From Ancylomarina salipaludis (GTDB taxonomy: Bacteria > Bacteroidota > Bacteroidia > Bacteroidales > Marinifilaceae), in NCBI RefSeq assembly GCF_004122035.1, contig NZ_SAXA01000002.1:62001-126000 (forward strand): a DNA stretch of 64,000 nt, in the 5' to 3' direction. The translations under genes were made by a program, and so were the position numbers. The notes under the pieces were generated by a model, which saw nothing but the letters and a program-made list of their open reading frames with translations, was not told where the DNA came from and did not search any database. Below, piece by piece: positions 33,017-33,566 of the stretch. How positions within the stretch are numbered: position 1 is the first letter of the stretch; every line of letters begins with the position of its first letter.

Positions 33017-33125
33017 TAATTTATACAGAAGAAGTGAGAGAACAGGCTCTGTGACCTTCTGACAACCGCGGCTCCAAAACCGAAAGGTGTCAAATCCTGA
33101 CCAAGTAATTGGTGAATATAAATTA
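33017..33125 (+). ncRNA. SAM-I-like riboswitch aptamer
   Basis: The SAM-clan core is readable as GAGAGAAC, then GACCTTCTGACAACC and AAAGGTGTCAAATCC, close to the S-box consensus (AGAG, GaagCCtGGCAACC, AAGGTGCtAAttCC). The helices close well. P1 is TAATTTATA (33017-33025) with TATAAATTA (33117-33125), a perfect 9 bp. P2 is CAGAAG (33026-33031) with CTTCTG (33056-33061). P3 is CGG/CCG (33069-33071 with 33080-33082). P4 is ACCAA/TTGGT. A P2-loop pseudoknot joins CAGG (33043-33046) to CCTG (33096-33099). It should bind S-adenosylmethionine and repress the methionine operon when SAM is abundant. The family assignment is by motif and pairing, not by covariance search. Confidence 0.88.
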
Positions 33126-33131
33126 GGAACT

Positions 33132-33251
33132 ATGAAGACAGAAAATCAAAACATCAATCAGGTAGCTCAACATGAGCTAAACTTACATTTGCAAATCTTT
33201 AGTGCATCTACTCAAATGATGCGAATGCAAATGATGATGCGTATGCTATAA
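33132..33251 (+). CDS. Met-rich leader peptide of the methionine operon
   Basis: This 39-codon ORF starts six bases after the riboswitch P1 helix, preceded by AGGAAC. It encodes MKTENQNINQVAQ, then a neutral middle, then ends SASTQMMRMQMMMRML. Seven of its last eleven residues are Met, and the run lies directly before the stop codon, as in classical amino-acid attenuator leaders. The last Met codons overlap a hairpin (33237-33242 with 33251-33256), whose 3' arm can instead pair with 33291-33296. I infer that ribosome stalling from lack of Met-tRNA would favour the second pairing and change expression of metY. The alternative is a real small Met-rich protein, but its place between a SAM sensor and met genes favours a leader. 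Confidence 0.75.
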   Translation: MKTENQNINQVAQHELNLHLQIFSASTQMMRMQMMMRML

Positions 33252-33296
33252 CGCATTCTGTCTATAAAATTTCCCCTTTTTTAGATGCCGGTGCGT
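33237..33296 (+). promoter_or_regulatory. mutually exclusive hairpins at the end of the leader ORF
   Basis: ATGCGT (33237-33242) pairs with ACGCAT (33251-33256) around an 8-base loop that contains the end of the leader. The same ACGCAT can instead pair with GTGCGT (33291-33296, one G-U). A ribosome stalled on the Met codons would cover the first arm. A T9 tract follows at 33337-33345, but no textbook terminator stem abuts it. Confidence 0.4.
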
Positions 33297-33566
33297 ATAA
33301 AATAACTCCGATAAGGGAACTCAAACTCATTACTTGTTTTTTTTTCAGTATTTCATTGTGCCTGATTTTTCATCAGAGCAAAGAAATTGTACAATCAATT
33401 ATCAAAGGATTAATACATCCTGTATTCTTTGTGCATCAAACTTTTAATGTGTTTGTGACAACATGAGTTCAGATTCCGGAACTCATCTATTCAATTTTAT
33501 TTCATTAAAAATAATTGGAAAGTGATATTCCTTAAGGGGATATGCTGTCCTAAAAACAAGATAGCT
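33252..33566 (+). promoter_or_regulatory. structured leader between the Met-rich ORF and metY
   Basis: This 315-base untranslated stretch holds several possible stems: TTCCCcTT/AAGGGAA (33271-33278 with 33313-33319), two competing ones at 33406-33426 (AGGAT/ATCCT versus AATAC/GTATT), and a perfect 8-bp ATGAGTTC/GAACTCAT hairpin at 33463-33486. GAACTC also occurs at 33317-33322, so the last stem could exchange partners. It is probably the expression platform. No other ORF is convincing. Confidence 0.4.

Follow-up and report, generated by a model that had tools for sequence, protein, structure and literature searches.

In amino-acid attenuators, ribosomes stall on the control codons of a leader when the corresponding tRNAs are uncharged. 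Typical S-box riboswitches carry a terminator-type expression platform directly after the aptamer, a feature that does not define the aptamer class. According to the accessible parts of the papers cited here, a 2007 study noted S-boxes in Bacteroidetes/Chlorobi (PMC2211319), and a SAM-II riboswitch of Sinorhizobium acts on translation at a distance (PMC9373788). Among the closest described systems are the tandems of a SAM-I riboswitch and a T-box(Met), seven of which are given in Table 2 of PMC9481103 and two in its text; the accessible main text of that paper has no mention of 'leader peptide', 'uORF' or 'Bacteroid'. Leaders that respond to two signals and contain a codon-run ORF have been described for Salmonella mgtCBR (PMC3641672; PMC6460261). 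With respect to the predicted Cys leaders of Actinobacteria, Rho is mentioned as a weak possibility in PMC1262725.

The component devices are thus known. For their combination, a SAM-I aptamer with a Met/Cys leader, no description was found in the accessible parts of PMC2965389, PMC4833913 and PMC7366714, nor, among the matches listed, did the accessible open-licence literature describe a Met or Cys leader peptide behind a SAM riboswitch. The first-pass annotation of the present locus likewise gave no described example. The locus, located upstream of metY in Ancylomarina salipaludis, resembles the SAM-I/T-box(Met) tandems in its order, with SAM-I first and a sensor of tRNA(Met) charging (here a putative one) second, as well as in the position before metX and metY and the predicted NOT A AND B logic (PMC9481103). 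We consider it probable that the locus encodes a serial two-stage RNA switch, in which the SAM-I aptamer gates a leader and the leader in turn reads Met/Cys codons.

The metY locus of A. salipaludis

The window, namely the whole stretch of DNA analysed, comprises 64,000 nucleotides, and the features of the metY locus given below all lie on its + strand. A SAM-I riboswitch aptamer with a TTATA-type P1 was detected at 33018-33124 (RF00162, 74.4 bits, E 1.4e-15 for the whole window), above the curated RF00162 threshold of 44.4 bits. It scored 106.6 bits with a purpose-built model whose training set included the window itself. Judging from this family match, the aptamer would bind SAM. Its 9-bp P1 is formed by 33017-33025 and 33117-33125, and the 3' strand, TATAAATT (33117-33125), spans positions -7 to -15 of the leader start, including -12 and -13. 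The leader ORF (33132-33251), consisting of 39 codons and a stop (MKTEN...MMRMQMMMRML), starts 7 nt past P1, and seven of its last 11 codons (33216-33248), the presumptive control codons, encode Met, as the ORF translation showed; such codons were enriched in relatives. These results agreed with the first-pass annotation, which had read from the sequence alone a SAM-I-like aptamer with a 9-bp P1 ending at 33125, as well as an ORF with the same start, length, terminal residues and Met count.

The gene for O-acetylhomoserine aminocarboxypropyltransferase, metY (33567-34874; TIGR01326, 649.3 bits with a cut-off of 495.1), follows at a distance of 315 nt from the ORF. The region behind it (34914-38512) contains a metX-like gene and the genes for homoserine dehydrogenase and aspartokinase, covering the remaining route to homocysteine by NCBIfam assignment. 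The best metX match of the metX-like gene was 343.8 of 500 bits, below the cut-off, and the other two were each above a subfamily cut-off. From the spacing, these genes probably constitute one operon.

A probable promoter of the Bacteroidetes type was located by pattern match at 32946-32976 (TTTG, a 19-nt gap and TACATTTG). The pattern, which follows the Bacteroidetes promoter consensus of TTTG, gap and -7 motif, is weak alone, giving nine matches in the window on both strands when 5.9 were expected. When the type-B aptamers defined below were scanned (94 with enough upstream sequence), the -7 motif TANNTT[TC]G was found within 120 nt upstream in 74 of them, as compared with 11.2 expected, and 64 of the 80 matches began 41-70 nt upstream of the aptamer. 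This enrichment indicated that aptamer and leader are probably co-transcribed. A short terminator-like palindrome (ACCTC..GAGGT, 32998-33014), obtained by a pattern scan of both strands, follows the probable promoter and precedes the aptamer.

When the leader was compared with Rfam, E values as high as 5 being admitted, only chance-level matches were obtained besides SAM, and thus no second known RNA. In 33000-33600, RF00162 alone reached its threshold and no T-box was detected, weak matches to E 5 included. A pattern scan to 33700, covering the interval between leader and metY, found no terminator after the aptamer.

Both of the SAM aptamers detected in this genome carry a Met/Cys-tailed leader. 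The second one (L011) is followed by a 36-codon ORF ending MLCMRMCMC and then by a gene for an NhaC-family transporter. The window also harbors an FMN riboswitch (49046-49160, RF00050, 120.2 bits) ahead of an ORF at 49251-50390, which we take to be ribD; the ORF list of the window contained no Met/Cys-tailed ORF directly after this riboswitch.

Survey of SAM-I aptamers in Bacteroidota

RF00162 was searched in 58 relatives (35 matched) and in two sets of 392 genomes each, one from the order (116 over the cut-off) and one from the phylum (309 over the cut-off). The resulting 221 loci were composed of 168 from these searches (among the matches listed, 88 automatic and 80 hand-chosen), the 52 of 80 metY loci that carry an aptamer, and the window, and corresponded to 214 distinct Bacteroidota SAM-I aptamers; part of the hand-chosen loci came from the top of the list, biasing the sample to high scores. 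Three classes were distinguished by P1, namely type B with xxxTTAT[AT] (132 aptamers), type A with xxxTTATC (49 aptamers) and a remainder of 33. These classes, as well as the cut-off of three Met/Cys, were defined after inspecting the data. Only the first ATG in the 40 nt past the aptamer was considered as a leader start, with an ORF of 15-60 codons required, so that a locus whose second ATG is better (such as L015) counted as a miss. The Met/Cys tail was defined as at least three Met or Cys in the last ten codons. We used 30 TPP and 30 cobalamin riboswitch loci as controls. The removal of near-duplicates resulted in non-redundant sets of 110 type-B aptamers and 125 other SAM-I, TPP and cobalamin aptamers.

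Of the 132 type-B aptamers, 105 were followed by an ORF of 15-60 codons, whose ATG was located 3-15 nt past the aptamer in all 105. The Met/Cys tail was present in 72 of these ORFs, the other 33 being below the cut-off. The remaining type-B aptamers either open a structural gene directly (6) or have neither within 40 nt (21 of 132). Type-A aptamers gave 11 ORFs with an ATG within 40 nt, none of them with the tail, and the other P1 class gave 14, of which one had it; in the controls, an ORF was seen at one of the 30 TPP and five of the 30 cobalamin loci, again with no tail. In the non-redundant type-B set, the leader ORF started 3-15 nt past P1 at 85 of 110 loci, compared to 10.4 in dinucleotide shuffles, and the tail was found at 55 of 110, compared to 0.05 in shuffles and to only 1 of the 125 other aptamers (Fisher p 1.8e-21). 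When residues were scored with no preselection, the tails were enriched in Met (log2 3.8) and Cys (2.9), followed by Trp (six cases) and Arg. The fraction of Met and Cys was 0.29-0.66 over the last eight codons; beginning with the 12th codon ahead of the stop, it did not exceed 0.11. A short leader ORF with a run of control codons near its stop, as in attenuators of the trp/his type, was present in the survey, and its frame was kept at the 14 loci of the family of the window. Within this sample collected by aptamer, sequence comparison showed the aptamer type, the leader position, the Met/Cys tail and the restriction to type B.

At several of the loci L059-L084, which have CTATCATCC-type aptamers, an ATG at or beside the aptamer end opens frames of often two to four codons (MHSC, MHTC), possibly as part of a terminator. 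These tiny ORFs, variable and in many cases of 2-4 codons only, were not counted as leaders.

The occurrence of leaders after type-B aptamers was also compared among downstream genes, grouped by the first long ORF (duplicates included). The metY cluster (87 loci) had a leader at 82, a direct gene start at 2 and neither at 3, and the aspartokinase cluster (10 loci) had a leader at 6, a direct start at 0 and neither at 4. The HcyBio cluster (PF01837, tested for L003) had the ORF at 13 of 13 loci, that of L010 being without the Met/Cys tail, and a leader was present at both NhaC and both metX-like loci. A cluster of 21 loci that we read as metH had a leader at 4, a direct start at 5 and neither at 12 (duplicates included). 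As the presumed metH loci are mostly leaderless, a type-B P1 is insufficient for a leader. L093, L111, L199 and L118 fell outside all downstream clusters, and L199 was a metY locus by the MetY search. The aptamers of L093 (genome G024) and L011 are nearly identical, but in L093 the first long ORF is a different one and no ATG occurs in the 40 nt past the aptamer; L093 is apparently a natural case of leader loss with the aptamer retained.

Position of the leader start relative to P1

Terminator-like hairpins in the region from -20 to +110 of the aptamer end were detected at 27 of 49 type-A aptamers (7.2 expected), and no excess was observed after type-B aptamers (14 of 110, 10.7 expected). At the six type-B loci with a direct gene start (ATGs within 40 nt), the structural-gene ATG was located at +10 to +15 in five and at +35 in the sixth. 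As these ATGs mostly lie 10-15 nt past P1, the leader occupies the place of a directly regulated gene.

Bacteroidia ribosomes make no use of Shine-Dalgarno pairing and rely on A at -3, -6, -12 and -13 together with low structure, according to the accessible part of PMC9976891. The A frequency in 85 leaders was 0.68, 0.61, 0.78 and 0.76 at these positions, respectively, and also 0.60-0.66 at -5, -11 and -17. Position -13 was inside the P1 strand in 61 of the 85 leaders and -12 in 49, and the adenine signal at -12/-13 is owed in part to the P1 sequence. The leader of the window has A at -3 and -12 only of the four positions, with G at -6 and T at -13. The overlap of P1 with the start region, together with the lack of a terminator in type B, suggested that SAM probably blocks leader translation; P1 closed by SAM would hide part of the leader start region.

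The same data bear on an alternative in which the two stages are independent, with the aptamer acting on transcription alone and the leader being a separate attenuator whose order and closeness are incidental. Such an arrangement has precedents in the accessible literature, as Cys-run leader peptides without a riboswitch were predicted in Actinobacteria (PMC1262725) and tandem independent attenuators exist in mgtCBR (PMC3641672), but it is unlikely here because the type-B aptamers lack the terminator excess, the spacing between leader start and P1 is fixed, and the often-terminated type-A aptamers showed no excess of leader ORFs (4 of 44, 3.7 in shuffles).

RNA folding and codon usage around the leader stop

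The leader family of the window, which we take to be Marinifilaceae, was aligned (14 sequences), and 52 of the 102 columns were invariant, 42 of these past the stop. The Met-Arg codons ATGCGT (arm 1, 33237-33242) can pair, when free, with ACGCAT at 33251-33256 in arm 2 (33251-33257), whose first base is the last of the stop codon. This pairing was kept in 96.4% of cells in the 14 sequences, as compared with at most 47.6% for slid arms. Folding and alignment also indicated an alternative partner of arm 2, arm 3 (33290-33296), which has the core GTGCGT at 33291-33296 and lies in a nearly invariant block, GGTGCGTATAAAAnAACnCCGA. The loop TTCCC (33271-33275) can pair with GGGAA at 33315-33319 as a possible pseudoknot (95.7% of cells paired), and the 2:3 and loop-tail pairings together were kept in 97.5% of cells in the 14 sequences vs at most 47.3% when slid. 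When the Met codons were masked by cutting at 33247, the hairpin 33251-33257/33290-33296 was formed in silico (-14.4 kcal/mol, z -2.09), and when they were free (33228-33324), 33237-33242/33251-33256 was formed (-17.4 kcal/mol, z -1.08).

The two alternative pairings had been proposed in the first-pass annotation as the downstream fold, and the arms were located as given there, with both pairings folding in silico and both kept in the family. The covariation also called for in that annotation was uninformative, as both pairings are nearly invariant, and no compensatory change in arms 1:2 or 2:3 was found in the 14 sequences; nor did the proposed fold generalise over the 74 leaders described below.

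Several further features were observed in this region. The RNA block past the stop (33251-33319 and its counterparts in relatives) is nearly invariant and more conserved than the peptide body. L006 has a re-registered loop-tail pair, CCTAAT/ATTAGG, as judged by eye. The relatives of 33320-33566 keep further hairpins of differing sequence (by eye, ATGAGTTC..GAACTCAT in the window and GTGAGT..ACTCAC in L131), and the 315-nt gap to metY contains extra hairpins outside the proposed model.

Hairpins and terminators at leader stops were tested across lineages only for leaders with a Met/Cys-rich or Met-Arg-type ending, with near-identical or short downstream sequences dropped. A hairpin right after the stop was enriched in 74 leaders (mean z -0.81, Fisher p 2.6e-7) and strong in a minority (z < -1.64 in 23% of the 74). 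In most HcyBio leaders, the post-stop hairpin was no stronger than in shuffles. Terminator-like hairpins near leader stops were found in 27 of 75 cases over all lineages (14.2 expected), in part of the lineages only; the clearest case was L194, in which a hairpin of -15.5 kcal/mol formed by the Met/Cys codons and a post-stop arm is followed by seven T. Pairing of the codons with a post-stop arm was rejected as a general rule, being unenriched over the 74 leaders (mean z 0.04, Fisher p 0.56). A hairpin overlapping the codons and followed by a U-rich tract was likewise not adopted as a general terminator (74 leaders, Wilcoxon p 0.085, Fisher 0.46). The values for this overlap terminator in single lineages were suggestive, with p 0.03, the lowest possible, for L113, L146, L181 and L194, and 0.06 for the window.

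Codon usage for Arg was also examined. Among the Arg codons in the last ten positions at 96 type-B loci, AGA/AGG accounted for 3 of 138 (duplicates included), compared to 27 of 70 in the leader bodies and 200 of 686 in the downstream ORF (at least 150 codons) of type-B leader loci. CGA accounted for 57 of 138 in the tails vs 53 of 686 in the downstream ORF, and 101 of the 138 tail Arg codons follow ATG. This bias suggests a constraint at the RNA level or in decoding besides the amino acid. At ten Sphingobacterium-type loci (L162, L168, L173-L175, L180, L183, L190, L207 and L226), the leaders end CGA-ATG-CGN-TAG, the stop being TAG in 10 of 10 and followed by TCGTC or a close variant, and at most of them TCGTC can pair with a GACGA-like segment downstream.

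These observations raise the question of selection on the RNA, in which repeated AUGCG or UGUUGC would serve as a helix arm and coding would be secondary. The near-restriction of tail Arg to CGN is in line with it, as are the ending atgcgctgcatgcgc, identical in 10 of the 11 HcyBio leaders listed, and the pairing of arms 1 and 2 in the family. We nevertheless consider this reading quite improbable, since the Met and Cys codons are in frame and adjoin the stop at loci whose nucleotide contexts are unrelated, and codon pairing with the post-stop arm was unenriched in the 74 leaders. Pressures at the RNA and coding levels may act together.

Leader peptides across lineages

The ORF of the family of the window was 37-40 codons in length with the frame kept at 14 loci, and the tail stays as the body drifts. 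Of the 91 sequence pairs, which are not independent, 82 were usable for the body and gave a median dN/dS of 0.54; for the last 12 columns, 68 were usable and the median was 0.19. Conservation of the Met run, which the first-pass annotation had named together with silent drift elsewhere as support, was observed, and the loss of frame or Met run that it had named as counter-evidence was unseen in the 13 relatives compared (37-40 aa). The metY leader tail in this family reads MMRMQRMMRML, and in L006, a more distant member, the tail is reduced to FIMHMI.

Other lineages had different tails: MSMRMRCMR in the HcyBio leaders, MCMCCCCC, ICMCCCC and MYMCCCC in Mucilaginibacter, CCMCMPCWYCC in a Pedobacter MAG, MRMRCRFGACCCCC in Hymenobacter telluris, RMR at the end of Sphingobacterium leaders, and a long Cys run, CCCCCCC, in L111. 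As the tails are Met-rich, Cys-rich or mixed depending on the lineage, the peptide probably counts sulfur amino acids beyond Met. The Met-tRNA signal of the first-pass annotation was consequently widened to sulfur amino acids in view of the Cys and mixed tails of several lineages.

When leaders were compared with peptide families (six with Pfam and seven with NCBIfam, 13 queries with seven different leaders), nothing significant was found; one leader match in Pfam was at chance level (E 0.017, below the cut-off). A direct action of the peptide, for instance in metal binding or as a modified product rich in Met and Cys, in place of codon counting is very improbable: Cys runs like that of L111 and MCMCCCC-like endings could bind metals, but the body is variable, Met and Cys interchange, the run adjoins the stop, and the Pfam and NCBIfam comparisons gave no significant match.

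Discussion

In the serial switch favored here, a terminator-less SAM-I riboswitch would control translation of the leader starting just past P1. SAM would close P1 over upstream positions used by Bacteroidia ribosomes, leaving the leader untranslated. At low SAM, the ribosome would translate the leader and reach the terminal Met and/or Cys codons, where a scarcity of charged Met- or Cys-tRNA would cause it to stall on the run. The stalled ribosome would block the default fold around the stop, and metY or other Met genes would then be expressed, the resulting logic being NOT SAM AND low Met/Cys. SAM would thus block leader translation, and stalling would be the ON signal. Stalling with uncharged tRNAs is implied by the Met/Cys runs beside leader stops before Met genes, and the final step after stalling, which may be termination, either intrinsic or by Rho, or control of metY translation, may differ between lineages. 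The downstream genes, metY, HcyBio, aspartokinase, metX-like and the NhaC-family transporter, fit and support the serial switch. As for the serial two-signal device of the first-pass annotation, the gate by SAM and the signal from charged tRNA were well supported by comparison, and the downstream fold is unproven.

Somewhat less firmly, we favor the extension to a Bacteroidia-wide class, in which the expression platform of SAM-I is a leader start and SAM, Met-tRNA and Cys-tRNA are read in series by ribosomes independent of Shine-Dalgarno pairing. If true, an aptamer and a codon-counting leader peptide would be fused into one serial gate, forming one class across several orders, and this would explain the action of SAM-I without Shine-Dalgarno pairing and without a following terminator. 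There would then be many short genes, absent from Pfam/NCBIfam as far as tested, whose sequence states the sensed amino acid, and it would be predictable from DNA whether Met, Cys or both are sensed.

Parts of this arrangement can be recognized in known systems, as described in the accessible parts of the papers. The predicted Actinobacteria leaders (PMC1262725) likewise consist of a short ORF with the control codons, Cys runs, just before the stop and without a conserved terminator hairpin; they differ in belonging to another phylum and in having no preceding riboswitch described there. The B12 riboswitch of Mycobacterium tuberculosis ppe2 (PMC11260477) also controls translation of a short ORF that is relayed to the gene, but mostly through stop-start reinitiation, with no amino-acid-sensing codon run described in that text. 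The Salmonella mgtCBR/mgtA leaders (PMC3641672) are alike in combining, in one leader, a metabolite or ion signal with a proline-codon ORF. They differ in that ATP (and Mg2+) and proline act additively, that a SAM aptamer is absent, and that no aptamer governs translation of the ORF in series. In comparison with the SAM-I/T-box(Met) tandems (PMC9481103), in which the T-box binds tRNA directly, the second stage here is a translated leader with Met/Cys codons, and the first stage, unlike that of the tandems, appears to act on the translation of this leader.
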